From: a virus
DNA length: 45,585 bases
Reading direction: 5' to 3' (one strand)
Virus record (IMG/VR): IMGVR_UViG_3300042301_002924
Location: 1 to 45,585 of that record
Part shown: piece after piece, positions 1 through 41,694 of the stretch
How the letters are laid out: each line of letters begins with the position of its first letter
How positions within the stretch are numbered: position 1 is the stretch's first letter
The notes under the pieces: generated by a model
Seen by the model: the letters and a program-made list of their open reading frames with translations, nothing else
Database searches by the model: none
What the model was told of the DNA's origin: nothing
Program-made: the position numbers and the translations under genes

Positions 1-35
1 GTATGTTTAATAAATCTATTAATTGCTGTATCCAT
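1..35 (-). CDS. Partial small gene running off the left edge
   Basis: Only the first 11 codons are visible (MDTAINRFIKH). The ATG overlaps the stop of the upstream gene as TAATG, the translational-coupling arrangement seen throughout this operon, which supports the start. No function can be read from so short a piece. Confidence 0.55.
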   Translation of the reverse strand, partial: MDTAINRFIKH

Positions 36-469
36 TAGTCCCAACCTTTGTCGTCTAGAATGTAATCAATACCTGCATCTACGGCTTCATAGAATGTGTC
101 ATAGACTTCTCCCATGTCATCGTTGTGAGCAAATAGTTCCCACCACGGATTCATACGATACACTTCAAATCCTGCATTACTAATAGTTTTAATAAACTGC
201 ATTAGTTGAATGTCATCGTTGATACCTGCAGCCTCTAAGTCGTCAGAGTATCTCACAATAGTGACACCCTCATCAGATAGTTCACCATTAACTAAGTTTG
301 GTAGTGATAGACTCATCTCACCACCACGTTCAATCTCTACCACACGGTCAAGGTATGTGATAGTTGCATAAGACTCATAGCCCTCTTGCCATACATAAAA
401 CTCTGGCATTTGTTTGCTAGTGGGTATTGTCTGTGTGTATTCTACTGTTACGCCTTCGTATGTTTTCAT
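35..469 (-). CDS. Hypothetical acidic early protein, 144 aa
   Basis: Not recognised. It is a soluble acidic protein with no membrane segment or Cys motif, starting MKTYEGVTVEY and ending ILDDKGWD. Its stop overlaps the next ATG (TAATG) and it lies 12 nt after the preceding gene, so it belongs to the operon that starts from the promoter at 1730-1752. Confidence 0.75.
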   Translation of the reverse strand: MKTYEGVTVEYTQTIPTSKQMPEFYVWQEGYESYATITYLDRVVEIERGGEMSLSLPNLVNGELSDEGVTIVRYSDDLEAAGINDDIQLMQFIKTISNAGFEVYRMNPWWELFAHNDDMGEVYDTFYEAVDAGIDYILDDKGWD

Positions 470-481
470 AGTCGTATCCTA

Positions 482-715
482 CTATACTTTCTTTGGAATG
501 TCAAGTCTTGTTAGGTTGTAAGCCAGGATTTCTTCTAGCCTCTGATATTCAGCTAATTCTTCTGAACCCTCTTCTGCAAACTCCCAATGTCCAGTAGTTT
601 TATTATAAATAGTTCCGTCACCCTCTTCTAGCATTACGTTAGTGGTTTCAGCATCTACCATAAAAGCTCCCCAGTCCTCGTCATAAACTACAACCCAATG
701 ATGTTGGTAACTCAT
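482..715 (-). CDS. Hypothetical early protein, 77 aa
   Basis: I start this gene at the internal Met (MSYQHHWVVVYDEDWG). That ATG overlaps the TGA of the small gene upstream as ATGA, like its neighbours; a longer reading to 760 would only overprint that gene. The protein is acidic (EEGDG, EEGSEELAEY) with an aromatic N-terminal half. No family recognised. Confidence 0.7.
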   Translation of the reverse strand: MSYQHHWVVVYDEDWGAFMVDAETTNVMLEEGDGTIYNKTTGHWEFAEEGSEELAEYQRLEEILAYNLTRLDIPKKV

Positions 716-843
716 ACTTCTACTTCTCCTAAGTCCATTAGATAATCTTCCTTGCCACACTCAATGCAACTAAATACCATTTCATCTTCATACTCTAGAA
801 ATGTAGCATCACACATACAGCACTTAACCTTGTTCATCAACAT
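712..843 (-). CDS. Small zinc-ribbon protein, 43 aa
   Basis: It begins MLMNKVKCCMCDATF and has a second pair CIECGK at about residues 26-29, so two CxxC knuckles about 14 residues apart, the pattern of a minimal zinc ribbon. It starts 1 nt after the stop of the gene at 845-1048, and its TGA overlaps the next ATG. The start could also be the second ATG at 837. A role in transcription or host-protein binding would be inference. Confidence 0.65.
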   Translation of the reverse strand: MLMNKVKCCMCDATFLEYEDEMVFSCIECGKEDYLMDLGEVEV

Positions 844-844
844 A

Positions 845-1048
845 CTAATCCCTTTCGTGTACGATTATGTCTTGTAGGTAAAAAACTGACGGGTCAATCT
901 TATAGTTGTCAATTAATTTATCTGTTGCTGATTCAATAACAAAACTATCTGTGTCTTCTAGTTCATCTGGCGGTGTAGCAAAACCAACATTAACTAAAAT
1001 AACCATGTGTTCAAATACAAACTCTACATCATAGAAATACAAATCCAT
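845..1048 (-). CDS. Hypothetical early protein, 67 aa
   Basis: Not recognised. Starts MDLYFYDVEFVFEHMV and is acidic towards the C terminus. The ATG overlaps the upstream stop by one base (TAATG), placing it firmly in the operon of 35-1699. Confidence 0.7.
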   Translation of the reverse strand: MDLYFYDVEFVFEHMVILVNVGFATPPDELEDTDSFVIESATDKLIDNYKIDPSVFYLQDIIVHERD

Positions 1049-1275
1049 TAGTTAATCTCCACTTCTAATCCGTGATACTCTAAAGAAATCATTGTCTGTT
1101 CTAAGTCAGCAGAGTCGTCACACTCATCATAGTAGCCAAGGTTCTTAAAATGAGCCCAAGCATCGTCATTGTCAAATTCTGGGTTCTCTGCTACATACGC
1201 TTCCCAGTCTTTTTGATCTATCTTCATTGACCATTGTGATTCAAAAGTTCCTTGAAAGGTTCCTGTCAAATACAT
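1048..1275 (-). CDS. Hypothetical acidic early protein, 75 aa
   Basis: Very acidic and aromatic (AENPEFDNDDAWAHF, YYDECDDSADLEQ), starting MYLTGTFQGTFES. Single-base overlaps link it to both neighbours. No family recognised. A DNA-mimic or host-inhibitor role is possible for acidic early phage proteins but nothing here proves it. Confidence 0.72.
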   Translation of the reverse strand: MYLTGTFQGTFESQWSMKIDQKDWEAYVAENPEFDNDDAWAHFKNLGYYDECDDSADLEQTMISLEYHGLEVEIN

Positions 1276-1532
1276 TACACTATCTCCAGTCTGTTCTTGG
1301 CAAAGAATAGGTCTGTGCCGTCCTCATCTTTAATTGAAATCTGGCAAGGTACATCAAATTTGTCAAGGAATAAATTATGTTCTATCTGCCATTCTTGATC
1401 TTTAACAAACTCTACCATAGCCTCATGTGAAATAGGGTGTCCATGAATACCATACTCACCTGTTGCTAACATCATTTTAATCAATGCTTCTTCTGAATAA
1501 ATAACTTCTGTTGTTGCTACTAGATAAGTCAT
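1275..1532 (-). CDS. Hypothetical early protein, 85 aa
   Basis: Starts MTYLVATTEVIYSEEALIK. The C-terminal part (QISIKDEDGTDLFFAKNRLEIV) looks like a beta hairpin and the middle is helical. Its ATG overlaps the upstream TGA (ATGA). Not recognised. Confidence 0.72.
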   Translation of the reverse strand: MTYLVATTEVIYSEEALIKMMLATGEYGIHGHPISHEAMVEFVKDQEWQIEHNLFLDKFDVPCQISIKDEDGTDLFFAKNRLEIV

Positions 1533-1699
1533 ACCTTTTTACTCCTAATTACTATTTGAACCATTTCTTCTGTATGATAAAAATGCTTTACAAATTTATA
1601 AGCAGTTTCCCATTGTTCTAATTCAATACCACCAACACCATGTAATTCAACAAAGTGTTCTGCTAACTCGCTTAGTAGTGGGTCTGTTACGTCAATCAT
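1529..1699 (-). CDS. Hypothetical first gene of the leftmost early operon, 56 aa
   Basis: A mostly helical small protein (MIDVTDPLLSELAEHF, ending QIVIRSKKV). It is the first gene after the promoter at 1730-1752, with AAAGGAC as ribosome binding site, and its TGA overlaps the next ATG. No family recognised. Confidence 0.68.
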   Translation of the reverse strand: MIDVTDPLLSELAEHFVELHGVGGIELEQWETAYKFVKHFYHTEEMVQIVIRSKKV

Positions 1700-1729
1700 T
1701 TTTTGTCCTTTTGTAGGTTGATACTTTGT

Positions 1730-1752
1730 ATCCTATCACAGAGGTCTGACAT
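1730..1752 (-). promoter_or_regulatory. Early promoter, TGTCAGAC-N8-TANNNT type
   Basis: On the minus strand: ATGTCAGAC, eight bases ending in TGA, then TAGGAT. It precedes the operon of 1699-1 and is one of 12 copies of the same signal in the window. Confidence 0.8.
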
Positions 1753-1820
1753 TTTTGCACGGCTTGGGGGTGTTTTCAAGTCTTCTTAATCATGTTCTAA
1801 GACTAATAGACTTATTAAAT

Positions 1821-1835
1821 GGGGGGCGCAGCTTG
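1821..1835. repeat. GGGGCGCAGCTTG element, copy 1
   Basis: Conserved G+C-rich 13-mer in an otherwise AT-rich spacer, about 70 bp upstream of the early promoter at 1730, with CTTAAT between them. Copies recur at 3295, 4513, 5587, 6693, 7551 and 9070. Function unknown. Confidence 0.7.
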
Positions 1836-1838
1836 AAG

Positions 1839-1859
1839 GAGCAGTTTAACGTGATGCTC
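1839..1859 (-). other. Small hairpin after the 1888-2388 gene
   Basis: GAGCA pairs with TGCTC across an 11-base loop. An almost identical structure (GAGCAGTTTA...TGCTCAG) occurs at 3315-3336, also between a stop codon and a GCGCAG element. There is no U-run, so it is not a standard terminator. It may be a 3'-end or processing signal (inference). Confidence 0.4.
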
Positions 1860-1887
1860 AGCACTTTTACCTACCTACTAGATAAAC

Positions 1888-2388
1888 CTAGTATCTTTCA
1901 TCAATTGAATCAATGTCTGCATCAGATTCTTGAATCTCATACTTAGATTCATTAGAAGAGATTTCAATGTCAAAGTCATAGACACTTAAGTCAGACACAT
2001 CTTCATTAACTGGAATTGAGATTGTTGCCTTGATTGTTACATTGAATTCAACTTCAACTTCTTTAGACAAGTCAATGCTAAGAATGTTTGCAATTTCAGT
2101 TGCGTGTTCTTCGCCAATCTCATCAAAGTTCTCAACAAGATAATCTTTTAACTTGTCGTGTGCCCTTGAGTTACGGTTGTTGGTTTCTTGTACCGCATCT
2201 AGTCTCCAGTAAGTTCTGGAAATGTCGTCTGCATTTTCTAGGTCAAACTTTGAATCTGACGGTGTACCATAGTAGTAACCCTTTCGGACAACAATGGTTG
2301 CCCTTGGGTCATAGAGAGGCTTAAGTTCTCCTGCCTCTACGAGTTCTTTAACGAATGTTGCATTTGTTTCTGGAAGTTGAACGTCCAT
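1888..2388 (-). CDS. Hypothetical early protein, 166 aa
   Basis: Starts MDVQLPETNATFVKEL after a good GGAG site in the leader ACCTACAAGGAGAATAAA, which is nearly identical before the gene at 6826-7128. The C-terminal third is acidic with repeated S/E/D runs. Not recognised. It has its own promoter (2421-2443) inside the end of the upstream gene. Confidence 0.75.
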   Translation of the reverse strand: MDVQLPETNATFVKELVEAGELKPLYDPRATIVVRKGYYYGTPSDSKFDLENADDISRTYWRLDAVQETNNRNSRAHDKLKDYLVENFDEIGEEHATEIANILSIDLSKEVEVEFNVTIKATISIPVNEDVSDLSVYDFDIEISSNESKYEIQESDADIDSIDERY

Positions 2389-2389
2389 T

Positions 2390-3190
2390 TTATTCTCCTT
2401 GTAGGTTGGTTGTTGAAACTAGTGTATCAGAGAGGTCTGACAATTCTTGCCATTCCTCTAATTCTGTGTCCCATTTGTATTTAGTAGTGTCAACTGGGCA
2501 ATCTTCAAAAGCATACTCAACGTCTTCATACTGACATTGACAGTCTCTTTCTAATGCCTCGTAGTCTGCGTGGCTTGATGGAATGTCATACTCATTACAG
2601 GCAATGTCTTCTCCACCCAAGAATGTGCAACTACCACCCCAGCCTTGCTCTTCCTCATACTCATAGTCAAACTCAAGAGTTGGATACATCTCTGATAGTT
2701 TCATTAGAACTTCACCAACAGGAGACCAAGCGGTTTGAAAATGATACATAACAGAACCATCTTCATTAACAGTTTTAATAGTGTTAGGATAATCAGCCTT
2801 GTTATCAACTGCTACGTCCCACTTAGTTCCCCAGTTACGACAGTTCCAATGATACCAGTCTTGGTCTTCTTTCATAGAGCGAACAAACTCTTGCATAAAA
2901 CTTTCACCATCAAACTTTCCATCATCATCTTTCTTGATGTTGGCGTTACCTTTGTACACATCTTCACCATAGTATGCTTCAAGGTCTGTTGGTTTTACAA
3001 TGTTCCAAAATGCAAAGACAGGATTATCATAGATTTGAACATCAGGTAAGTGTTCCCACTTCTCTGTTTCTTTATTGTATTTCATTTCAGGAAAATGTTT
3101 TACGAATGGCTGATTTAATTGTTCAACCATCTTATCTAATTCTGACTGTTCGCCAGATACAACTAGACTATTAAATACCCAGTTTGGCAT
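2390..3190 (-). CDS. Api92/YubB-like protein with ferredoxin-like fold, 266 aa
   Basis: The opening MPNWVFNSLVVSG, the N-terminal half with KHFPEMKYN, and the later NCRNWGTKWDVAV are the signature of the phage and plasmid Api92/YubB-like family, which carries a ferredoxin-like alpha/beta domain and has no proven function. Residues 1-150 hold the conserved part; the tail is acidic and contains a CQCQ stretch. It follows its own promoter at 3222-3244. The last 18 codons also contain the promoter of the next gene. Confidence 0.8.
   Translation of the reverse strand: MPNWVFNSLVVSGEQSELDKMVEQLNQPFVKHFPEMKYNKETEKWEHLPDVQIYDNPVFAFWNIVKPTDLEAYYGEDVYKGNANIKKDDDGKFDGESFMQEFVRSMKEDQDWYHWNCRNWGTKWDVAVDNKADYPNTIKTVNEDGSVMYHFQTAWSPVGEVLMKLSEMYPTLEFDYEYEEEQGWGGSCTFLGGEDIACNEYDIPSSHADYEALERDCQCQYEDVEYAFEDCPVDTTKYKWDTELEEWQELSDLSDTLVSTTNLQGE
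2421..2443 (-). promoter_or_regulatory. Early promoter inside the end of the upstream gene
   Basis: TTGTCAGAC, eight bases ending TGA, then TACACT on the minus strand. It overlaps the codons for SDTLV near the C terminus of the 2390-3190 protein and gives the 1888-2388 gene separate expression. Its -10 is the poorest of the set. Confidence 0.7.
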
Positions 3191-3221
3191 TTTATCTCTT
3201 TTCTTAGTAGGTTATGATTTC

Positions 3222-3244
3222 ATCATACCACAGAGGTCTGACAA
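3222..3244 (-). promoter_or_regulatory. Early promoter, TTGTCAGAC-N8-TATGAT
   Basis: Consensus copy driving the 2390-3190 gene, spacer ending TGG so the -10 is extended. A 6-bp hairpin (GGGGTA/TACCCC, 3249-3264) sits just upstream of it. Confidence 0.82.
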
Positions 3245-3294
3245 TTTTGGGGGTATTTCTACCCCACCTTAATCGTAAACGAGGAGCTGGGATC

Positions 3295-3307
3295 CAGGCT
3301 GCGCCCC
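3295..3307. repeat. GCGCAG element, inverted copy
   Basis: CAGGCTGCGCCCC on the plus strand, the reverse complement of the other copies; the only one in this orientation. Read on the minus strand it extends into GCCTGGATCC, shared with the copy at 9070. It overlaps a small hairpin (CTGG/CCAG). Confidence 0.6.
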
Positions 3308-3314
3308 GAAGAGG

Positions 3315-3336
3315 GAGCAGTTTAGTGGTCATGCTC
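3315..3336 (-). other. Second copy of the GAGCA/TGCTC hairpin
   Basis: Five-base stem with a 12-base loop, 68 nt after the DUF932 stop. The flanks (GGGAGCAGTTTA, TGCTCAGGAC) match the copy at 1839-1859. No U-run follows on the minus strand. Role unknown. Confidence 0.4.
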
Positions 3337-3403
3337 AGGACCGTGCTACCCTTATTTATACTCTGTGTAACTGAGAGTTTCCTACCGTTCGGATTTTGTC
3401 TTA

Positions 3404-4393
3404 CTAGGCGAAAGCAACCTCTTTCACAATTGAAAGTAGTTTGTTTTTCTCTGCTGTGATAACTGGGTCAAAGCCTGATGCACTTGCAAGGATTCCCTCG
3501 TTGTTGCCATTACGGGCAGAACGATACCAGTCAAGTCTTTCAGTCAATGTGTTAAAAGCACCCCAAGCAGTATTGTTAATCATTGAATTTGTATCTGATG
3601 CAAAAATCTCATCTAGCAAATCAATTTTGGTTTCCCACTTGGTCATAGCACCCTTTGCATCTTGCTTTGGCATTGGGTAAGCCTTTTCAACAATCTTATT
3701 GAAAGTATCTTTTGTGATTTCCTTTTCAATAAGTTCTTGAGCCATTTTGTCAAAAGCATCCATGTAAGTATTGGCAAGACCCAATGCTTCACGAGCAACT
3801 AAGATACGACCCTCAAGTGTTGATGTGTGTCGCATCTTGAAAGACTGCTTAACACCACGAAGAGCCATGTCAAGAGTGTTAGCACACACAACACGAACAG
3901 GTGTTACGGATGCACGAACAGCAAGAGAACCGTCATGTGATGTATTTACAAGTAAGTAAGACTTAACAACATCTGCAACTCCACTTGGGTCAAGTACGGT
4001 TTCACGTTCAAGAGCAAGAGAGCCAAATACAACACGACCATTCTTTAGAGAACCAGCAGTTTCCCAACGAGCACCGTCAAGAAGATTATCTGCAAAAGCA
4101 AATAGTTCTTCATTCTGTAAAGTCTGGTAACGCTCACCAACAACTGCTAGAACATCTGGGTGTCCGTCTTCTGGGTGGTCACGAACAACAAGAAAGTTAG
4201 ATTTGCTTGATGTGTAATCCTCAGGTAGTTGAACATCTTCAAGACGTACATTCCAATTTGATAAGTGTGCTATGTCCATGACTTCACTTGTAGTGTGTTC
4301 TTCTGTAACAACAGTTCCTAGACCATGCCAAGCAGGTTCACGAAATGAATACATAGAGCCAACACCGTTAATAATTTCTACTGCATCTGCCAT
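3404..4393 (-). CDS. DUF932 phage/plasmid-like protein, 329 aa
   Basis: The N terminus (GVGSMYSFREPAWHGLGTVV), the central SVTPVRVVCANTLDMAL and the later helical part (REALGLANTYMDAFDKMAQEL) match the DUF932 / TIGR03299 phage-plasmid family, and 329 aa is the usual length. The biochemical role is not established. It has a good ribosome site (AAAGGAAAC) and lies 34 nt downstream of the promoter at 4427-4449. It probably forms a single-gene unit ending before the hairpin at 3315-3336. Confidence 0.88.
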   Translation of the reverse strand: MADAVEIINGVGSMYSFREPAWHGLGTVVTEEHTTSEVMDIAHLSNWNVRLEDVQLPEDYTSSKSNFLVVRDHPEDGHPDVLAVVGERYQTLQNEELFAFADNLLDGARWETAGSLKNGRVVFGSLALERETVLDPSGVADVVKSYLLVNTSHDGSLAVRASVTPVRVVCANTLDMALRGVKQSFKMRHTSTLEGRILVAREALGLANTYMDAFDKMAQELIEKEITKDTFNKIVEKAYPMPKQDAKGAMTKWETKIDLLDEIFASDTNSMINNTAWGAFNTLTERLDWYRSARNGNNEGILASASGFDPVITAEKNKLLSIVKEVAFA

Positions 4394-4426
4394 TTTGTTT
4401 CCTTTGTTTGTTTGTTTAATAGTCTT

Positions 4427-4449
4427 ATCTTAGCACAAGGGTCTGACAA
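4427..4449 (-). promoter_or_regulatory. Early promoter, TTGTCAGAC-N8-TAAGAT
   Basis: Drives the DUF932 gene. The spacer ends TGC (extended -10). The leader downstream has the AAACAAACAAAGGAA sequence shared with other early units. Confidence 0.82.
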
Positions 4450-4512
4450 TTTCAACTTAAACTGGCAGATATCTGTGTGTCTCTTAATAGCTTTATATAA
4501 CGATTTGATAAC

Positions 4513-4526
4513 GGGGCGCAGCTTGG
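4513..4526. repeat. GGGGCGCAGCTTGG element abutting the tRNA
   Basis: Copy 3, overlapping the CCA end of the tRNA-Asp gene. CTTAATAG precedes it at 4483, and the early promoter lies 64 bp further left. Confidence 0.65.
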
Positions 4527-4600
4527 CGATCTGGATGGGACTTGAACCCACGACCTCCGCCGTGACAGGGCGGTGCTCTAACCAACTGAGCCACCAGACC
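4524..4600 (-). tRNA. tRNA-Asp (anticodon GTC), CCA encoded
   Basis: A full cloverleaf can be drawn on the minus strand: seven-pair acceptor GGTCTGG/CCAGATC (one G-T), D arm GCTC/GAGC, anticodon arm CCGCC-CTGTCAC-GGCGG with anticodon GTC, T arm GTGGG-TTCAAGT-CCCAT, discriminator G73 (the Asp identity base) and an encoded CCA. It is the only tRNA I find. It lies downstream of the gene at 4685-5161 and is probably co-transcribed from the promoter at 5192. It may supplement the host pool. Confidence 0.95.
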
Positions 4601-4684
4601 AAAGGTGTGCCAGGATTTAGATCTCTATCATTCAATCACCAACAACCTGGCGGTATTGGCTACCTTTTAATTAATTGAGTTACC

Positions 4685-5161
4685 TTACCAAGAGGCTTGG
4701 TACTCAAAATAGTCGAACTTACTATCAAGGCATCTAGTAATAATGCCAATAGTGTCATTCAAATCTCCAAAGTAATACTCATCATAGTCAGTAGAACCAA
4801 AGAAGAATCCACTACCAGTTGGCAATTCTTCTTCTGCTACTTCTGGATTAGCAATTACATTTATACAAGTTTCTTTTAGAGTTTCTAAATCTTCTCTACG
4901 AACTGTAATTGGCTGACATTCATCAACACCATCTGCTAAGTTATTTACAAACCAATGGTGAATCATATTTGACTTACGCCAGTAACCCATTGGTACATCA
5001 ACAGTAATACCAGCAAAGCCAGTAGTGTCAATTACATCTTCTAATTCAAGACTGCTAACAATTTCATTGAATAGAGGATTTATTGTGTCCTCATCAGTTT
5101 GACGATTAAAGTTGTGACGGTAAACGTATTCGCTTGCACGAAGGTACATATCTAGTCCCAT
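4685..5161 (-). CDS. Conserved phage protein of the MGLDMYL type, 158 aa
   Basis: The start MGLDMYLRASEYVYR and the middle block MGYWRKSNMIHHWFVNNLADGVDEC are typical of a widespread small phage and bacterial family that opens MGLDMYL and carries a YWRK-N-IH-WF core. I know no function for it. The start is fixed by this N terminus, with a weak GAAAGAAG site. The promoter at 5192-5214 precedes it and the tRNA follows. Confidence 0.78.
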   Translation of the reverse strand: MGLDMYLRASEYVYRHNFNRQTDEDTINPLFNEIVSSLELEDVIDTTGFAGITVDVPMGYWRKSNMIHHWFVNNLADGVDECQPITVRREDLETLKETCINVIANPEVAEEELPTGSGFFFGSTDYDEYYFGDLNDTIGIITRCLDSKFDYFEYQASW

Positions 5162-5191
5162 AGTTTTCTTCTTTCTTTTGTAGGTAAGTTT

Positions 5192-5214
5192 ATCTTATCA
5201 GAGAGGTCTGACAG
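5192..5214 (-). promoter_or_regulatory. Early promoter, CTGTCAGAC-N8-TAAGAT
   Basis: Drives 4685-5161 and probably the tRNA. Same spacing and TGA extended -10 as the other copies. It lies directly after the terminator hairpin of the preceding unit. Confidence 0.8.
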
Positions 5215-5220
5215 TTTTAA

Positions 5221-5251
5221 GGTGGGGTGCAAGGGTAAGGAACACCCCACC
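5221..5251 (-). terminator. Strong hairpin terminator, possibly bidirectional
   Basis: A perfect 9-bp stem GGTGGGGTG/CACCCCACC closes a 13-base loop, flanked by A/T-rich bases. It lies 14 nt after the stop of the 52-aa gene and just before the next promoter, so it insulates the two units. The U-run is short. Confidence 0.65.
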
Positions 5252-5265
5252 TAAACTTGTCTTAA

Positions 5266-5424
5266 CTACTTAGTTAAAGTAGTCCAGCGTGGCTGTCCGT
5301 TTACATCAAGACGAACACGGTATGAACCATTTGCGTTCTTGACTACTTCCTGAACTTCGCCAGTAACCTTGCTCTTTGCTGTGGTGAACTGTGAGCCAAC
5401 AGTTGGGGCTGTGATTTTTGCCAT
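5266..5424 (-). CDS. Small hypothetical protein, 52 aa, single-gene unit
   Basis: Reads MAKITAPTVGSQFTTAKSKV, with a C terminus GSYRVRLDVNGQPRWTTLTK. The composition (T, K, V and a YRVRLDVNG hairpin) suggests a small beta-barrel, perhaps SH3-like, but this is only an impression. It has its own early promoter (5473-5495) and a strong terminator, and its codons are richer in G and C than the neighbours, which suggests high expression. Confidence 0.7.
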   Translation of the reverse strand: MAKITAPTVGSQFTTAKSKVTGEVQEVVKNANGSYRVRLDVNGQPRWTTLTK

Positions 5425-5472
5425 TTGCTTCTCTTTTCTTTTGTGGGATTGTTCCCTTGTTGTTATAGTATT

Positions 5473-5495
5473 ACTATACCAGAAAGGTCTGACAT
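5473..5495 (-). promoter_or_regulatory. Early promoter, ATGTCAGAC-N8-TATAGT
   Basis: Copy of the repeated early promoter with TGG extended -10, 48 nt upstream of the 52-aa gene. Confidence 0.78.
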
Positions 5496-5586
5496 TTCAA
5501 AATCCGACACCCTATAATCTCACTATGTGGACACTTTTCGGTGTGTCCTTAATCACATCGTAAATGCTTGACAAGTGGATCAAAAT

Positions 5587-5598
5587 GGGGCGCAGCTT
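5587..5598. repeat. GGGGCGCAGCTT element
   Basis: Lies immediately after the stop codon of the gene at 5601-5735, with CTTAATC at 5548 between it and the next promoter. Confidence 0.65.
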
Positions 5599-5600
5599 TT

Positions 5601-5735
5601 TCAAGCCTTTTCCCTTTCTCGAAGGTATTCAATGTAAATTTCAGTAGATGCCATTTCACTCATCATTCTATCTAACTTAGTAAATGTATCTTCTTCAATT
5701 ACTTCTGGTTTTCTATTAAATAATTTTATAGCCAT
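5601..5735 (-). CDS. Small hypothetical protein, 44 aa
   Basis: Reads MAIKLFNRKPEVIEEDTF and ends IEYLREREKA: a basic start, then an acidic helix. The frame stays open upstream to 5915 (104 aa), but that extension only overprints the 49-aa gene, whose stop overlaps this ATG by 8 bases. I therefore take the short form. Confidence 0.65.
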   Translation of the reverse strand: MAIKLFNRKPEVIEEDTFTKLDRMMSEMASTEIYIEYLREREKA

Positions 5736-5875
5736 TCTGCTAAATCTCCATCTGCTATTTCTGAATAGTCCATACCTTGCGATTCTGCAATTGCTTCCCA
5801 CAATTGTTCTTCCGTGTAGTTTCCATCTGGATACCACTCTGTTAAAATGCCATACAAGTCTTTCATCTTGCTCAT
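5726..5875 (-). CDS. Small hypothetical protein, 49 aa
   Basis: Reads MSKMKDLYGILTEWYPDGNY, with a C terminus ESQGMDYSEIADGDLAEWL. An acidic helical protein; EEQLWEAIAESQG resembles a short helix-turn-helix-like pair but is not convincing. The ATG overlaps the upstream TAA (TAATG). The linked starts and stops on both sides are the main evidence. Confidence 0.68.
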   Translation of the reverse strand: MSKMKDLYGILTEWYPDGNYTEEQLWEAIAESQGMDYSEIADGDLAEWL

Positions 5876-6216
5876 TATGCAAATACCTTTCCATACAATT
5901 CAACTGTACTATCATTATCTAAATCTGTCAATGTGTTATTTACTAAATCTAATACAACTGTCTTATCAAATAATTGGTTGCCAATTTCTGAACGGCTAAT
6001 TGCATAAATACCAAAGCCAGTTTCATCTAAAACGTAGTCTTTGATTAGGTGTGAGATAACCATACGGGTAAAGTATGAATAGTCACCCTTACGTTTCTGT
6101 GCGTGTACTAATGCACCTATTAAATCATTTTCCCAATCAGACTCACCCCAATGGGAATAAAGATTAACTAGACTATCTGTTCCATCATCAAATACGAAAT
6201 TAATTCTTGCACCCAT
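5875..6216 (-). CDS. Conserved phage hypothetical, 113 aa
   Basis: MGARINFVFDDGTDSLVNLYSHWGES resembles a small phage family I have seen as MGARINFVF...LYSHWG. The core holds a central helix (VISHLIKDYVLDETGFGIYAI) and an acidic C-terminal part. Function unknown. It overlaps the next gene by one base. Confidence 0.75.
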   Translation of the reverse strand: MGARINFVFDDGTDSLVNLYSHWGESDWENDLIGALVHAQKRKGDYSYFTRMVISHLIKDYVLDETGFGIYAISRSEIGNQLFDKTVVLDLVNNTLTDLDNDSTVELYGKVFA

Positions 6217-6217
6217 T

Positions 6218-6334
6218 TTAGTAACCTGCTTCCTTTAACATTTTTTCAATGGCTTGTAATTCTTCGGTAGACAATTTATCAATTGCCTTTTCATCTATAA
6301 CACCCTCAAATAGGTTTATTAGTAGTTCACTCAT
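6218..6334 (-). CDS. Small helical protein, 38 aa
   Basis: Reads MSELLINLFEGVIDEKAIDK and ends EEAGY-like (EKMLKEAGY). It is almost entirely helical and acidic. Its ATG overlaps the upstream stop (TAATG) and it ends 1 nt before the next start. Too short to assign. Confidence 0.6.
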   Translation of the reverse strand: MSELLINLFEGVIDEKAIDKLSTEELQAIEKMLKEAGY

Positions 6335-6573
6335 TATTCATCATCTCCAAACATTGAATCCCAGCAAATGCCACACATTCCAGAAATGAATCTTTCACGA
6401 ATGTCTGCATCATAGTCTGACAAAACTGTTTGGGCATAAGCACCTTGATTGTATGCAAATAACTTATCTGATGAGATTGAAACTGTTTTGGTTTCGTTGC
6501 AAGTTGGGCAAGGGTGTGATGTAACAACGTATCGTTCGTTCATCACTTTCATTGGATTGTGGAGAGTGAACAT
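6334..6573 (-). CDS. Zinc-ribbon protein, 79 aa
   Basis: I start at MFTLHNPMKVMNERYV, preceded by CGAAAGGAAC. A longer reading to 6648 would run through the promoter at 6604-6626, so I reject it. Two knuckles, CPTC (about residues 22-25) and CGIC (about 67-70), are about 45 residues apart, fitting a zinc ribbon or a small treble-clef-like fold. First gene of the operon 6573-5601. Confidence 0.75.
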   Translation of the reverse strand: MFTLHNPMKVMNERYVVTSHPCPTCNETKTVSISSDKLFAYNQGAYAQTVLSDYDADIRERFISGMCGICWDSMFGDDE

Positions 6574-6603
6574 AGTGTTCCTTTCGTTGGTAGGTATGAT
6601 TTC

Positions 6604-6626
6604 ATCATAGCATAAGGGTCTGACAA
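6604..6626 (-). promoter_or_regulatory. Early promoter, TTGTCAGAC-N8-TATGAT
   Basis: Drives the five-gene operon 6573-5601. TGC extended -10. The downstream leader GAAATCATACCTACC resembles that of the 3222 copy. Confidence 0.82.
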
Positions 6627-6683
6627 TTTCCTGCAAATCTGGGAGCACTCTCTTAATTACTTAATAACAATTAGATAACAGGG

Positions 6684-6704
6684 TTATCCACAGGGCGCAG
6701 CTTG
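6684..6704. repeat. DnaA box followed by a GGGCGCAGCTTG element
   Basis: A perfect TTATCCACA (6684-6692) runs straight into the GCGCAG element (6693-6704), just after the stop codon of the small membrane protein gene. The pairing of the two motifs recurs at 7507-7560 and 9049-9096. Confidence 0.55.
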
Positions 6705-6706
6705 CC

Positions 6707-6817
6707 TCACCAGTGAGGGTCGCCGTCATTATTAGAAGTCATTACTCCAATTATGAATCCGATTAGAGGTACTACGATGAATGGTGCAAAAATAATTAGA
6801 ACAATTATTTCAAACAA
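6707..6817 (-). CDS. Tiny membrane protein, 36 aa (TTG start)
   Basis: From TTG the peptide reads MFEIIVLIIFAPFIVVPLIG and ends TSNNDGDPHW, one or two tight membrane segments followed by a short polar tail. GGAG overlaps the stop of the upstream gene at a suitable distance. The start codon is uncertain. Confidence 0.5.
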   Translation of the reverse strand: MFEIIVLIIFAPFIVVPLIGFIIGVMTSNNDGDPHW

Positions 6818-6825
6818 TTTTATTT

Positions 6826-7128
6826 TTACTCCATATCCTGATATTCATATTCTTCATAGTAGTCATCACTCATCACCCAAGGATCCAAACGATGTTGCTC
6901 AACGATAGCGTATGCAGGTGCATAGTTACTACTGCGATAGTAAACTCCTTGTGGCATTTCTATTGCTGCATCTGGTACATCATTCCAAAAGGCATTTATA
7001 GCATCAACGCAAGGCTGTACCATTGAAAGTGGAATAGGTGGATAGAAATTAGAACGCAAGTGAATACCGATCTGATCTTCCATTGTCATTTCTAATTCGC
7101 CAATTGCGAGTGAAGTCATTAGTCCCAT
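6826..7128 (-). CDS. Hypothetical early protein, 100 aa
   Basis: Start MGLMTSLAIGELEMTM is set by the GGAG in ACCTACAAGGAGAATAAA, almost the same leader as the 1888-2388 gene. The C terminus is tyrosine/acid rich (SDDYYEEYEYQDME). The reading to 7251 overprints the basic 43-aa gene and is rejected. No family recognised. Confidence 0.7.
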   Translation of the reverse strand: MGLMTSLAIGELEMTMEDQIGIHLRSNFYPPIPLSMVQPCVDAINAFWNDVPDAAIEMPQGVYYRSSNYAPAYAIVEQHRLDPWVMSDDYYEEYEYQDME

Positions 7129-7129
7129 T

Positions 7130-7261
7130 TTATTCTCCTTGTAGGTTTTTGTGTTTAGTCTTGCGTGTGTATTTCTTTTTGTTTCTATGTTTTGCAGAGG
7201 CATTACTCCTACGCAATTCAAGTCTTGCCCTAAGTTGTTCAGGGCTTGCAATAAATTTCAT
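7130..7261 (-). CDS. Small very basic protein, 43 aa
   Basis: Reads MKFIASPEQLRARLELRRSN and ends RKTKHKNLQGE, with about a third Lys, Arg or His. The charge suggests nucleic acid binding. The ATG overlaps the upstream TGA and its last codons contain the GGAG for the next gene, so the three genes are translationally linked. Confidence 0.65.
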   Translation of the reverse strand: MKFIASPEQLRARLELRRSNASAKHRNKKKYTRKTKHKNLQGE

Positions 7262-7404
7262 ACGTCTACCTCATCATCAAACTCAAACTCTTGTTCAGAT
7301 TCGTTATCGCAAAGTATGCAAAGTTTATTTTCCCAAGGGGTTAATTTGTCACCACACTCTTGGCACTTTAGTTTAGTTACATTCTCAAATGCTAATTCAG
7401 TCAT
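7258..7404 (-). CDS. Small zinc ribbon, 48 aa, paralogue of 9210-9341
   Basis: MTELAFENVTKLKCQECGDK...CILCD has two CxxC knuckles 15 residues apart. It matches the plus-strand gene at 9210 along most of its length (MTELA-ENVT/IT, K-KC-ECGDKLT-WEN, CI-C). It is the first gene after the promoter at 7430. A minimal zinc ribbon of this kind usually mediates protein or nucleic acid contacts; the target is unknown. Confidence 0.72.
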   Translation of the reverse strand: MTELAFENVTKLKCQECGDKLTPWENKLCILCDNESEQEFEFDDEVDV

Positions 7405-7429
7405 TGGAATTTCCTTTCTTTATAAGATA

Positions 7430-7452
7430 AACTTACCACAGAGGTCTGACAA
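7430..7452 (-). promoter_or_regulatory. Early promoter, TTGTCAGAC-N8-TAAGTT
   Basis: Drives the operon 7404-6707. TGG extended -10. Confidence 0.8.
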
Positions 7453-7506
7453 TTTTGGTATTTCAAGGCGTGTCTTATGTAACAAACTTATAACAAACTT
7501 GGGGGG

Positions 7507-7549
7507 TTATCCACACCTTCTTAAAGACCTGTGGACAAGCTGTGGACAA
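7507..7549. other. DnaA-box-like cluster
   Basis: TTATCCACA (7507-7515, perfect) and two TGTGGACAA sites (7530-7538 and 7541-7549, one mismatch each in the opposite orientation), directly before a GCGCAG element. It could be a secondary DnaA binding region or a regulatory site. Confidence 0.5.
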
Positions 7550-7550
7550 C

Positions 7551-7560
7551 GGGGCGCAGG
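7551..7560. repeat. GGGGCGCAGG element
   Basis: Copy 6, truncated at its right side. It lies between the terminator at 7561-7590 and the DnaA-like cluster. Confidence 0.6.
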
Positions 7561-7590
7561 AAAAATCCTGGAATGAAAAACACCCCAGGA
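7561..7590 (-). terminator. Intrinsic terminator for the 8228-7597 operon
   Basis: Minus strand: TCCTGG, a 13-base loop, CCAGGA, then TTTTT. The stem is 6 bp with a proper U-run, 6 nt after the last small gene. Confidence 0.7.
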
Positions 7591-7596
7591 AATTTT

Positions 7597-7662
7597 CTAA
7601 TCTGTAAAACTCCAAATTAAAACAAGGACAGCAGTTGCTATCAAAATTAAAACTGCTTCCAA
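7597..7662 (-). CDS. Possible 21-aa membrane peptide (TTG start)
   Basis: Reads LEAVLILIATAVLVLIWSFTD, a single hydrophobic helix. It starts 1 nt after the previous stop and ends just before the terminator. The size and TTG start make it speculative. Confidence 0.3.
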   Translation of the reverse strand: MEAVLILIATAVLVLIWSFTD

Positions 7663-7663
7663 T

Positions 7664-7738
7664 TTATTTTTCCTGACCTAACACAAATACAAAACCTGCA
7701 AGGGATAAAATTAAAACCCAAGAATAAAAACTATTCAT
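7664..7738 (-). CDS. Possible 24-aa membrane peptide
   Basis: Reads MNSFYSWVLILSLAGFVFVL then GQEK, one transmembrane helix. It begins directly after the stop of the 50-aa gene. Small membrane peptides recur in this block, but translation is unproven. Confidence 0.4.
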   Translation of the reverse strand: MNSFYSWVLILSLAGFVFVLGQEK

Positions 7739-7891
7739 TTAGTATTCACCTCTCAAAATAAATGCGAACGAATGTTTTCCTAAGTCAAAAATCAGGGAAG
7801 TATTTTTGCTACCTAGTTTTTTATTGTAGTAGTTAGAGAAACTAATTCCAAGAATAAATGTTCCGTCTATTTTATGATGTACGAATCTCAT
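7739..7891 (-). CDS. Small hypothetical protein, 50 aa
   Basis: Reads MRFVHHKIDGTFILGISFSN and ends SFAFILRGEY. It has a beta-rich pattern with basic and aromatic residues. TAATG overlap with the upstream gene supports the start. Not recognised. Confidence 0.6.
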   Translation of the reverse strand: MRFVHHKIDGTFILGISFSNYYNKKLGSKNTSLIFDLGKHSFAFILRGEY

Positions 7892-8058
7892 TATTTAATT
7901 ACCGCATTTCTGAATCGTGTTAAGTCAAAGTTAGAGTTATCTCTTTTGAAAAATGTTTGAAAGTCTGAAAGCAAATCCTCAAACACTTGTGTATCAATGT
8001 CCAAGTGGTATGAGTTTAGAATCTCTGCTACCGCTACATAGTCTTTGCGTGTCATCAT
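7891..8058 (-). CDS. Small hypothetical protein, 55 aa
   Basis: Reads MMTRKDYVAVAEILNSYHLD with a C-terminal NFDLTRFRNAVIK. The MTRKDY-(x)-AE-L start and the F(D)-RF end are common in short phage early proteins of unknown role. Either of two adjacent ATGs may be used. Confidence 0.65.
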   Translation of the reverse strand: MMTRKDYVAVAEILNSYHLDIDTQVFEDLLSDFQTFFKRDNSNFDLTRFRNAVIK

Positions 8059-8060
8059 TA

Positions 8061-8228
8061 TTATTTACCTGCCTTAGATAGTTCAAATTCGATTGCTAAC
8101 TTTGTGTAGGCTTGTTCCCACATTTTTTTATTAGCCTTTAGTTGTGTAACGCTTACGACTAAGTAAGCCAAAGCCCCAGCCAATAGGCTAGGTATTAAGA
8201 TGATTAGAGCCATTTGGATTAGTGACAT
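8061..8228 (-). CDS. Small membrane protein, 55 aa
   Basis: One N-terminal transmembrane helix (residues about 4-28, ALIILIPSLLAGALAYLVV) followed by a cytoplasmic helix rich in K and E. First gene after the promoter at 8259, with the leader CAAACGAAAGGGCATCTA. It could be a small membrane anchor or a host-envelope effector (inference). Confidence 0.65.
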   Translation of the reverse strand: MSLIQMALIILIPSLLAGALAYLVVSVTQLKANKKMWEQAYTKLAIEFELSKAGK

Positions 8229-8258
8229 TAGATGCCCTTTCGTTTGTTTGTTAGTTTT

Positions 8259-8281
8259 ATCTTACCACAGGGGTCTGACAG
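8259..8281 (-). promoter_or_regulatory. Early promoter, CTGTCAGAC-N8-TAAGAT
   Basis: Drives the operon 8228-7597. The leader has AACTAACAAACAAACGAAAGG, nearly the same as the leader after the 8656 copy. Confidence 0.82.
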
Positions 8282-8284
8282 TTT

Positions 8285-8416
8285 TTAGTGACCGTAGGTG
8301 TCACAGTTGGATGGGTCTTGTTCTACATAGTAGACACAATAGCCACAGATAGATTCATCACAGGCAGGGCAGGATTTCCATTCTGACCACTCTTCGCAGT
8401 TTTCGCATCTATTCAT
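8285..8416 (-). CDS. Cysteine-rich zinc protein, 43 aa
   Basis: MNRCENCEEWSEWKSCPACD followed by CGYC gives three CxxC pairs and one further Cys in 43 residues, enough for one or two zinc sites. The start overlaps the upstream stop (TAATG). Confidence 0.65.
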   Translation of the reverse strand: MNRCENCEEWSEWKSCPACDESICGYCVYYVEQDPSNCDTYGH

Positions 8417-8625
8417 TAGTAGCAACTACTAGCGGTACAATGACCAAGTGAATGACCGATAACACGCTTACCTTTATACAGGCAGTTATCGTGAGAGATG
8501 AAAGGCATCTCACCCTTAGCCATAGAAGATTGGCAAATCTCGCATTCGTCATAGTAGCGAACGGTATTGTAGAAAGTGTTACCTGCTGGGGTAACTACCT
8601 CTTCCATTATTTCAGTGTAAGTCAT
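8416..8625 (-). CDS. Cys/His zinc protein, 69 aa
   Basis: CEIC near residue 28, SHDNC near 45, and GHCTASSC at the end suggest a Cys/His zinc fold. Its leader (CAAACGAAAGGTGAGCAA) and promoter (8656) match the early class. Co-transcribed with 8285-8416. Function unknown. Confidence 0.7.
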   Translation of the reverse strand: MTYTEIMEEVVTPAGNTFYNTVRYYDECEICQSSMAKGEMPFISHDNCLYKGKRVIGHSLGHCTASSCY

Positions 8626-8655
8626 TTGCTCACCTTTCGTTTGTTTATTAGTTTT

Positions 8656-8678
8656 ATCTTAGCATAGAGGTCTGACAG
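8656..8678 (-). promoter_or_regulatory. Early promoter, CTGTCAGAC-N8-TAAGAT
   Basis: Drives 8625-8285. TGC extended -10. Confidence 0.82.
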
Positions 8679-8680
8679 TT

Positions 8681-8830
8681 TTACCCGTAGACACGCCTAG
8701 TCAAAAGTTTTATTTGTAAATTGTAGTAGTCAATCATTCTCTGATTAGTTGGGTCGTGCTTGAGAATTAACTCTAGTCCGTTTACTGCATCTACTAACAG
8801 TCTTGCATTTTTTATTTTAGTGTAAGCCAT
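8681..8830 (-). CDS. Small helical protein, 49 aa
   Basis: Reads MAYTKIKNARLLVDAVNGLE and ends LQIKLLTRRVYG. A basic helical protein, first gene leftward from the origin region, with GAAAGGTAATCC as ribosome site. Not recognised. Confidence 0.62.
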   Translation of the reverse strand: MAYTKIKNARLLVDAVNGLELILKHDPTNQRMIDYYNLQIKLLTRRVYG

Positions 8831-8857
8831 TTGGATTACCTTTCGTTTGTGTTAAGA

Positions 8858-8903
8858 CTTATTTGCTAGGCTCATCCCTTGCGGGCTTATTTGCTAGGCT
8901 CAT
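8858..8903 (-). other. Leader with duplicated 18-mer, short uORFs and GCAA hairpin
   Basis: Between promoter 8925 and the gene at 8830, an 18-bp sequence occurs twice (8858-8875, 8886-8903). On the minus strand each copy opens ATGAGCCTAGC, giving possible peptides MSLANKPARDEPSK and MSLANKS. Between them CCC-GCAA-GGG forms a tetraloop hairpin. Other early leaders are about half as long, so this one may be regulatory. Confidence 0.45.
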
Positions 8904-8924
8904 TCTCAACTGCTTTATGATTTC

Positions 8925-8947
8925 ATCTTAGCAGAGGGGTCTGACAA
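8925..8947 (-). promoter_or_regulatory. Early promoter nearest the origin, TTGTCAGAC-N8-TAAGAT
   Basis: First leftward promoter, spacer ending TGC. A CCCC/GGGG hairpin (8953-8967) lies just upstream. Confidence 0.82.
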
Positions 8948-8971
8948 TTTTGCCCCATTTCGGGGGGTAGT

Positions 8972-9130
8972 AAGATGAACAATAGATGAACATTAGGTTA
9001 ACAATAATCCACAGGACTTGGGGACTTATTAACACCTTCTTAACAGGGTGTGGATAAGCTGTGGAAAACGGGGCGCAGCCTGGATCCTGTGGATAACCTG
9101 TGAGTTATTGTTCACCAAATGTTAACCTAA
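8972..9130. other. Probable replication origin or divergent control region
   Basis: Divergent transcription flanks this spacer. It contains two perfect DnaA boxes (TGTGGATAA at 9049-9057 and 9088-9096), two one-mismatch sites (9005-9013, 9060-9068), and an 11-bp inverted repeat (TTAGGTTAACA at 8993-9003, TGTTAACCTAA at 9120-9130). A short repeat GATGAACAATA/GATGAACATTA precedes the left arm, and a GCGCAG element sits at 9070. No initiator gene adjoins it, so the origin call is inference. Confidence 0.55.
9070..9083. repeat. GGGGCGCAGCCTGG element in the origin region
   Basis: Copy 7, extended by ATCC, which it shares with the inverted copy at 3295. It lies between two perfect DnaA boxes, which argues against a pure 3'-end role for this element. 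Confidence 0.6.
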
Positions 9131-9152
9131 AAAAGGCGATTCTGGCTTGATT

Positions 9153-9175
9153 TTGTCAGTGGTATCTGCTAAGTT
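9153..9175 (+). promoter_or_regulatory. Plus-strand early promoter matching the RecA-NDp consensus
   Basis: TTGTCAGTG, eight bases ending TGC, then TAAGTT. This fits the actinobacterial RecA-NDp consensus (TTGTCRGTG-N8-TANNNT) at every defined base. The leader AAACAAACGAAAGGAAG is shared with the minus-strand units. It drives 9210-9722. Confidence 0.8.
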
Positions 9176-9209
9176 TAGAACATAGAAACAAACGAAAGGA
9201 AGTCATCAA

Positions 9210-9341
9210 ATGACTGAACTAGCATACGAGAACATTACTAAGACTAAGTGTGTTGAATGTGGTGACAAACTAACTGCTTGGGAGAATGTGTATTGCATTA
9301 TCTGTGAGCCTGATACATACGAACTAACAGAGGGATTCTAA
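9210..9341 (+). CDS. Small zinc ribbon, 43 aa, paralogue of 7258-7404
   Basis: MTELAYENITKTKCVECGDK...CIICE, with two CxxC pairs. It is clearly a duplicate of the leftward gene at 7258; both are the first gene of their operon, on opposite sides of the origin. GAAAGGAAG is the ribosome site. Confidence 0.72.
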   Translation: MTELAYENITKTKCVECGDKLTAWENVYCIICEPDTYELTEGF

Positions 9342-9344
9342 ATT

Positions 9345-9533
9345 ATGTTTATCTACAACCTTATTGCACCACTAACATTCATTTCGGTATTCTCATTACC
9401 TGCACTACTACTTGAACTACAACTGCTAGTCATTGGTCTAAACGGTATGACTCCAACAGTTATGCTAGTTACTTTTATTATTGGTTTAGTATCTGCAATA
9501 GGTGCTATTATCTGCAACACGTTAGAGGGTTAA
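9345..9533 (+). CDS. Small membrane protein, 62 aa
   Basis: Two hydrophobic helices (about residues 4-32 and 38-58) joined by GLNGMTP. It follows the zinc-ribbon gene by 3 nt in the same operon. Could be an early envelope protein; no family recognised. Confidence 0.7.
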   Translation: MFIYNLIAPLTFISVFSLPALLLELQLLVIGLNGMTPTVMLVTFIIGLVSAIGAIICNTLEG

Positions 9534-9536
9534 ATT

Positions 9537-9722
9537 ATGAATAACACATTACAAGAACTACACGTTGGACATCAAATTGGAAAGGCTTTCAATTCTAGAA
9601 ATTCAAAGTCAAAGAGTGTTATGTATTGCAAAGATTGTGCTGGAGAATTTCACGGCTGTTATTGTGAAGACTTAGAAAATTGTTTGAACTGTGAAGAGGT
9701 TGCAGAATTTCAATTCATCTAG
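9537..9722 (+). CDS. Cysteine-rich protein, 61 aa
   Basis: The C-terminal half has CKDC, CYC and CLNC within about 25 residues (CKDCAGEFHGCYCEDLENC), a likely zinc fold; the first half is polar and basic. Last gene of the rightward early operon, followed by a terminator. Confidence 0.7.
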   Translation: MNNTLQELHVGHQIGKAFNSRNSKSKSVMYCKDCAGEFHGCYCEDLENCLNCEEVAEFQFI

Positions 9723-35431: not shown

Positions 35432-35654
35432 ATAAAGAAATATATCCTTTAATTTTTTCTATCATATCAATTCCTGGATAAAAAGATGTTTGACAAGACA
35501 AGCAATAAAAATAAACTTTATCACTACTATCCATTCTACTAATTACCATATCTGGAAATTCTTCATTTTCATTAAAAGGACAAAGAATTTGTAACGCTTT
35601 TCCATTTTTAACTAAATCATTGTATAAGTTTATTTCTTGTATTGTTAGATCCAT
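35421..35654 (-). CDS. Small zinc-finger-like protein, 77 aa, minus strand
   Basis: ALQILCPFNENEEFPDM (one Cys) and YFYCLSCQTSFYPG (CxxC), fitting a small zinc-ribbon-like fold with an incomplete first knuckle. An AAGGAG site precedes its ATG. It is divergent from the reductase gene and convergent with the previous one, an isolated unit like the DUF7455 gene. No family assigned. Confidence 0.65.
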   Translation of the reverse strand: MDLTIQEINLYNDLVKNGKALQILCPFNENEEFPDMVISRMDSSDKVYFYCLSCQTSFYPGIDMIEKIKGYISLSTS

Positions 35655-35683
35655 TTGCTTCTCCTTGAATACTCGTGTAGAAT
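35655..35683 (+). promoter_or_regulatory. Probable promoter of the reductase gene
   Basis: TTGCTT (35655-35660), 17 bp, TAGAAT (35678-35683), 38 nt before the ATG at 35722. It abuts the start of the divergent minus-strand gene. Confidence 0.5.
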
Positions 35684-35721
35684 ATAACTATTCCCATTTT
35701 ATCAGAAGGACGTGTTACACA

Positions 35722-41322: not shown

Positions 41323-41694
41323 ATGGATTATCTAGATGGATTGCAAAAATTGCCAAACAAGCCAAAAGTAAGGGTTGTAGAAAACGATGCTGAATACGGT
41401 ATATATGTTTGGAAAACAGAAACAGGAAAAATATTTGGAGACGGAGATGGAAGTTTTATGAATATTCCAGCCCGAAAATATGACATAACTGCTATTAATA
41501 GAATTACTCAGGCTGCAGCACACTATGGTGCTGGTCCAGGAGAAGCAAAGTTTATGGCAGGAGTTACAAGAATTACAGATGAAGAGTATTCTGTTCAGAT
41601 TGACAGAATGAAGCAGGGCTACATACCAAGTGAATTTGATACTGGTGCTTTTGCTGATGCTGCAAAGGGGTTGCAACAACATGGAGATGAATAA
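41323..41694 (+). CDS. Conserved protein upstream of the portal, 123 aa
   Basis: LPNKPKVRVVENDAEYGIYVWKTETGKIFGDGDGSFMNIPARKYD, then ITQAAAHYGAGPGEAKFMAGVTRITDEEYSVQIDRMKQGYIPSEFDTGA is a block I associate with actinophage genes just before the portal. Function unknown; possibly a head-assembly or connector protein. Overlaps the portal start by 14 nt. Leaderless start proposed. Confidence 0.75.
   Translation: MDYLDGLQKLPNKPKVRVVENDAEYGIYVWKTETGKIFGDGDGSFMNIPARKYDITAINRITQAAAHYGAGPGEAKFMAGVTRITDEEYSVQIDRMKQGYIPSEFDTGAFADAAKGLQQHGDE

Follow-up and report, generated by a model that had tools for sequence, protein, structure and literature searches.

The divergent spacer in the phage record analysed here is best explained as a platform for the DnaA protein of the host, most likely an origin of phage replication, alone or as one of a pair, a reading to which we give about an even chance. 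The window, by which we mean the whole stretch of DNA under analysis, is the 45,585-base virus record IMGVR_UViG_3300042301_002924, classed as a possible fragment.

The left arm of the window (1-8.9 kb) carries small early genes on the minus strand, including a DUF932-like gene (phrog_1221; 3404-4393) and a tRNA-Asp (4524-4600) of which no exact copy, either at full length or over 56 bases, was present in the bacterial genome contigs searched. From 9210 rightward the genes lie on the plus strand and encode tail and fibre proteins, sugar functions, a ribonucleotide reductase (RNR; 35620-37662), the portal (41630-43240) and the head protease (43290-44681). At the DNA level, neither positions 8400-9600 nor positions 6500-7700 of the window showed similarity to named phages.

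Box cluster at the divergence point

The divergence point is the spacer at 8831-9209. It is flanked by a leftward early gene for a 49-aa product (8681-8830, minus strand), which has at least two boxes upstream in 5/7 non-redundant orthologues, and by a rightward gene (9210-9341, plus strand) for a 43-aa CxxC...CxxC protein that appears zinc-ribbon-like by eye and resembles the product of 7258-7404. The leftward gene has an early promoter-like repeat, TTGTCAGACCCCTCTGCTAAGAT (8925-8947, minus strand), mirrored on the rightward side by the sequence TTGTCAGTGGTATCTGCTAAGTT (9153-9175, plus strand), both of them putative promoters. Promoter-like repeats of the form YTGTCAGACCNCTNTGNTAAGNT lie upstream of early genes at 5192, 7430, 8259, 8656 and 8925 (-); they resemble an extended -10 element (TGNTAAGAT) with a fixed TGTCAGACC upstream.

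The initial annotation had described two perfect and two near DnaA boxes, bounded by an 11-bp inverted repeat and placed where transcription diverges, and each of these elements is present. The perfect boxes TTATCCACA lie at 9049-9057 and 9088-9096, both on the minus strand. A near box, TTTTCCACA (9060-9068, minus strand), follows 11 bp from the first of these, and a weak box, TAATCCACA (9005-9013, plus strand), completes a set of two perfect and two one-mismatch boxes spanning 92 bp (9005-9096). The inverted repeat pairs TTAGGTTAACA with TGTTAACCTAA without mismatch (8993-9003/9120-9130) and belongs to a longer, 33-bp repeat (82%; 8983-9015/9097-9129). The central spacer with GGGGACTTATTAACACCTTCTTAACAGG (9014-9048) separates the weak box from the perfect ones.

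The clustering of boxes in the spacer exceeds chance. The exact box TTATCCACA occurs four times within positions 1-9200, a number reached by none of 399 letter-permuted 9-mers (mean 0.10), and the largest cluster of boxes with at most one mismatch holds four in 95 bp, where more than two were seen in 0/60 second-order Markov simulations. Loosely matched boxes showed no excess over the whole window (23 against 17.3 expected; 12 of 100 shuffles reached 23), and the signal therefore lies in the clustering and in the exact boxes of the early arm; all boxes were scored against the DnaA consensus, which may differ from the specificity of the DnaA of the host.

Two mirrored arrays and a 40-bp module

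The inverted repeat forms the outer edge of two mirror-image arrays, of which the initial annotation had seen only that part. The left half-array (8974-9013, plus strand) consists of three 11-bp direct repeats, AGATGAACAAT, AGATGAACATT and AGGTTAACAAT (8973-9006), leading into the weak box; the left half of the window has no strong box. Repeats of the same kind face them from the right side, where the half-array (9088-9127, minus strand) forms a complete 40-bp module, GGTTAACA-TTT-GGTGAACA-ATAACTCACAGG-TTATCCACA, with the perfect box at 9088-9096 as its strong box. Within each array the strong boxes and the 11-bp repeats, which we read as putative weak DnaA sites, are in phase and point in one direction. 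Two oppositely oriented arrays were found in the window and in a further locus, L011. Single-stranded, the spacer gives a better fold than 200/200 shuffles (z -3.9), which is expected from mirrored arrays and is by itself no evidence of function.

In general form the module reads GRTDAACA-N3-GRTDAACA-N12-TTATCCACA, with four sites whose ends are 11, 10 and 11 bp apart. The pattern of the 11-bp repeats was derived from relatives and the window before the collection was scanned. An exact search of 2.9 million viral contigs returned 28 stretches, and the same module with its last box moved by 5 bp returned none in the same scan. Module loci were fetched by sequence pattern, so that conservation of the specified letters is not independent evidence; the 12 unspecified positions are AYAATYCACARG in nearly all of 23 distinct contexts, pointing to a further weak box in phase. 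Homologues of window proteins occur at 25/28 module loci, which thus belong to one broad phage family. Among 15 genome records the tandem GRTDAACA-N3-GRTDAACA was found seven times, on every occasion running in phase into a DnaA box, and the reversed tandem motif was found in none of the 15.

Conservation of the boxes in relatives had been proposed as a check, and both perfect boxes are indeed retained in the orthologous spacers of L058-L061 (identical in the spacer between the same two genes), L062 and L064. Because an 18-base pattern was used to fetch these loci, identity over those 18 bases is not independent. The near box TTTTCCACA is replaced by TTGTCCACA in L058-L061, and the left half of all these spacers has two or three TTATACACA boxes that the window lacks. 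The central spacer shows few changes and is a candidate unwinding region. In three protein-retrieved loci (L010, L016 and L022) the two half-arrays lie in separate gaps of the same region.

The 11-bp inverted repeat was rejected as a separate feature. Its exact form is kept in 0/3 distinct orthologous spacers: the left arm is missing in L062, both arms are changed in L064, and L058-L061 have one mismatch per arm. We consequently regard it as the outer repeats of the two arrays. When the inverted repeat was sought with its arms 100-130 bp apart, only two further contigs came up, L003 (2920-3200) and L004 (8150-8530). Both viral contigs have a spacer rich in GTTAACA repeats, no exact TTRTCCACA and no GGGCGCAG, and by reading we judged them apparently unrelated; the start of the gene beside the GTTAACA spacer reads, by eye, as ParB-type.

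The arrays could also bind a phage protein whose motif merely looks like a DnaA box. In its favour, the 11-bp repeats share few positions with the DnaA box, and the clusters adjoin genes for small zinc-ribbon-like proteins. We consider this very unlikely, because Streptomyces phages carry the exact DnaA consensus in surroundings that are unrelated, and do so alongside TTATACACA and TTGTCCACA, which are known DnaA box variants.

Other boxes of the early arm

As well as the three 11-bp repeats at 8973-9006, the initial annotation had missed a second box cluster and a single box elsewhere in the early arm. The second cluster (7507-7549), upstream of gene 7258-7404 (minus strand), consists of TTATCCACA (plus strand), N14 and two TTGTCCACA boxes (both minus strand), followed by GGGGCGCAG. 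The single TTATCCACA (6684-6692, plus strand) lies in an early intergenic gap with GGGCGCAGC immediately after it. Facing boxes of the form TTATCCACA-N14-TGTGGAYAA recur with the same 23-bp spacing in distant phages (window 7507-7538, G004 7472 and Samisti12 122951). ABC-primosome sites consist of a hairpin with a DnaA box in the stem, and by analogy the facing pair could form a hairpin of this kind.

Beside the boxes of the divergent spacer lies a G+C-rich element, GGGGCGCAGCCTGGATCC (9070-9087, plus strand). The sequence GGGCGCAG occurs seven times in the window, always between 1.8 and 9.1 kb (1824, 3299 (-), 4514, 5588, 6693, 7552 and 9071). The copies lie in or beside gaps of the early arm, mostly after the end of a gene or tRNA, with the next promoter-like repeat 60-130 bp further on. 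In close relatives GGGGCGCGGC takes the place of GGGCGCAG.

These additional boxes bear on the possibility that host DnaA acts as a transcription switch at early promoters, tying early expression to the replication state of the host. Upstream of promoter-like TTGTCAGACC...TAAG repeats, exact boxes occupy three gaps in the early arm of the window (6684, 7507-7549 and 9005-9096) and up to six gaps of the relative L010, and single boxes are scattered through other early gaps, a pattern that would suit a switch or titration of DnaA. Nevertheless, in other copies of the gap element (window 1824, 4514 and 5588, and L021) the box is replaced, by eye, with diverged sequence, and is therefore not needed for the promoter there. 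The oriC-like mirrored arrays also exceed what one regulator site needs.

Counts by gene type, taken from non-redundant cases in protein-retrieved loci only and requiring at least one exact box in the 350 bp upstream, were uneven. The 8681-type gene had such a box in 5/7 cases and the 7258-type gene in 3/3; the 9210-type gene had one in only 3/10. The counts for other early genes were 2/7 (6826-type), 2/14 (2390-type), 1/28 (5875-type), 0/6 (1888-type) and 0/9 (4685-type). For the favoured reading, a DnaA platform, the high counts of the 8681 and 7258 types speak in favour and the low ones of the 9210, 2390 and 6826 types against. The DUF932 gene, with an exact box upstream in 0/28 cases, again argues against a general switch at early promoters, which we regard as possible but unlikely.

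Position of box clusters in related genomes

All 150-bp windows of 15 genome records (1.18 Mb), comprising the window, Samisti12 and 13 of the 21 records in which exact TTRTCCACA was counted, were ranked by box content, with weights of our own choosing: 3 for TTATCCACA, TTGTCCACA and TTATACACA, and 1 for other one-mismatch boxes. Eighteen clusters in 13/15 records scored at least 6, a score reached by 4/120 simulated genomes, and none falls outside the early arm and its borders. Seventeen of the 18 are at most 9 kb from the DUF932-like gene (with G005 counted as circular); the remaining one is the orthologous spacer of a contig without a DUF932-like gene. The pitch between boxes on the same strand was 11 bp in 11 pairs, 12 bp in four, 13 bp in two and 8 bp in one.

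The two records without a cluster above background, G002 and G012, are contigs that end before the divergent border. G002 ends 2.8 kb upstream of the DUF932-like gene. G012 was rejected as a counter-example, since its contig breaks off within the leftward genes, short of the divergent border; the same gap elements recur in its early arm but lack exact boxes.

The convergent border, at the other end of the early arm, also has boxes in some relatives. In eight more distant loci (DUF932-like protein 61-66% identical) it holds 2 to 7 copies of TTRTCCACA, and in one of these relatives, L056, seven boxes (five TTATCCACA and two TTGTCCACA) lie within 105 bp. Several distant loci, for example L026, L036 and L044, have no boxes at the convergent border and carry them at the upstream border. 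In the lineage of the window, the convergent border has one box in G004 and none in G005. Taken across records, these positions indicate that, in the majority of records covering the borders of the early arm, one or both borders are marked by a cluster. The boxes in other early gaps and at the opposite border in relatives are not explained by a single simple origin.

The abundance of early-arm boxes, at both borders in some relatives, might suggest a decoy that soaks up host DnaA and so shuts down host initiation. Each of the 21 records has only 1 to 10 exact TTRTCCACA, and a decoy would not require phased, mirrored arrays. Both this decoy, which we think highly improbable, and the look-alike phage motif discussed above are less likely.

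Replication functions and proposed mechanism

The initial annotation had inferred that the phage depends on host DnaA for initiation or regulation, and this fits our findings well: the array is kept in relatives, it is in phase with weaker sites, and no phage DnaA was detectable, whereas the identity of the site as an origin is something that we infer. The search for a phage initiator covered the DnaA domains PF00308 and PF08299, and neither was found in any of 11 phage records, some of which may be fragments, with controls positive. Genes for a DnaB-type helicase, a DnaG-type primase, PolIII alpha and RecA were found in the relative G004 (in L070). The same relative encodes a phage FtsZ-like protein (L071:8429-9364) with GTPase and FtsZ C-terminal domains (PF00091, 6.1e-46; PF12327, 1e-29).

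GC skew had been suggested as a further test. The cumulative minimum does fall near the site, at 7.5-8.5 kb, but skew tracks gene direction throughout the relatives and so cannot discriminate an origin; we therefore rejected it as proof.

The proposed platform for host DnaA, in a phage that has its own helicase, primase and PolIII alpha, is therefore most likely a phage origin. In the mechanism that we propose, the strong and weak boxes, spaced by roughly one helical turn within two rows of opposite orientation, would load host DnaA cooperatively, and the loaded DnaA would open the DNA between the two arrays. The phage DnaB-type helicase and primase would enter the opened DNA, after which PolIII alpha would take over. 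The site would thus be used in place of a phage initiator, and relatives may have a second origin at the other border of their early arm. Host DnaA binding, the role of the 11-bp repeats as weak DnaA sites, strand opening and the start of replication at this place are all steps that we infer from the arrangement of the arrays.

If this is correct, the conserved 40-bp module predicts places of host DnaA binding in a large phage family in which no DnaA has been detected, and makes an oriC-like start of replication in such phages testable. Neither the module nor DnaA boxes in Stanwilliamsviridae were named in the open-licence PMC literature searched, and we found no description of the module there, although a search of this type cannot show that none is in print.

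Comparison with known systems

Box clusters at the edge of an early arm have a parallel in phage T5. A 10,219-bp terminal repeat in T5 has the annotated injection stop signal (AY543070, 9140-10149) at its inner end, and this signal holds one exact and three one-mismatch boxes within 9437-9518 (82 bp), with 12-bp pairs. Repeats, inverted repeats, palindromes and DnaA boxes are described in the signal, and the same passage puts forward a role for the DnaA boxes as a thought rather than a result (PMC13250531). The likeness to our spacer lies in a box cluster with repeats and inverted repeats at the early-arm edge.

Streptomyces phages of the Samistivirus group (Stanwilliamsviridae), such as Samisti12, also share an early-arm-border cluster with the window; their DUF932-like gene is 53% and their RNR 62% identical to that of the window. 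The 133.7-kb genome of Samisti12 has a single strong cluster, located at the convergent border. In all four phages tested (Samisti12, Sushi23, Jay2Jay and NootNoot) the first box lies 93-94 bp before the start of the terminal repeat, and among ten Streptomyces phages of this kind it is exact in nine, with one mismatch in Paradiddles. The Samistivirus cluster, beside the terminal repeat, has the form TTATCCACA-N13 to N15-TGTGGATAA at the convergent border, whereas that of the window is at the divergent border; no tandem pair of 11-bp repeats was found in Samisti12. By eye, short repeats of the TTCGTAA type recur in the long gap without genes that adjoins the terminal repeat or its counterpart, at the convergent border of G005 and G004 and at 122.6-123.9 kb in Samisti12.

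These parallels raise the alternative that the arrays form a T5-like signal for DNA entry, at which bound DnaA pauses injection until early proteins act. Besides the boxes of the T5 signal and the constant distance from the Samistivirus terminal repeat, the lineage of the window has some 11.4 kb between its two early-arm borders (6,724 bp from G005 and 4,657 bp from the window), the size of a T5-like repeat. Against it, the Samisti12 cluster is just outside the repeat and that of T5 inside, and SPO1, another phage with long repeats, has no such box cluster in its first 16 kb. As the role of the T5 boxes is itself put forward only as a thought in the passage on the signal (PMC13250531), we consider an injection stop quite unlikely.

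A broader reading, which we offer as a long shot, would combine entry and replication: phages with long early arms may repeatedly have placed oriC-like host-DnaA arrays at the border of that arm, where DnaA would mark or hold the boundary between early and late regions during DNA entry, as has been proposed for T5, and later fire replication without a phage initiator. If true, actinobacterial phages and T5 would have a box logic in common without common descent of the site. The cultured Streptomyces phages offer a counterpart in which the role that DnaA boxes play in the injection stop signal of T5 could be probed.

To return to the origin that we favour, the use of host DnaA for a phage function, as proposed here, is familiar from lambda and P1, in which host DnaA stimulates phage functions. 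Lambda and P1 encode an initiator with its own repeats; the present phages differ in that no phage DnaA was found.

A close likeness is to the orisome of Escherichia coli oriC, which is described as having its low-affinity sites in two arrays of opposite orientation, four to an array and with exactly 2 bp separation (PMC4451416). The window resembles oriC in its strong and weak boxes at a pitch of about 11 bp, with one direction per array and the arrays opposed. The order of sites differs, since the weak sites of the window lie outside the strong boxes and those of E. coli between them, and the arrays of the window sit in a divergent phage spacer with an unwinding element that is a candidate only. 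Overall, the site is best read as an oriC-type DnaA array in a phage spacer, with a conserved module.
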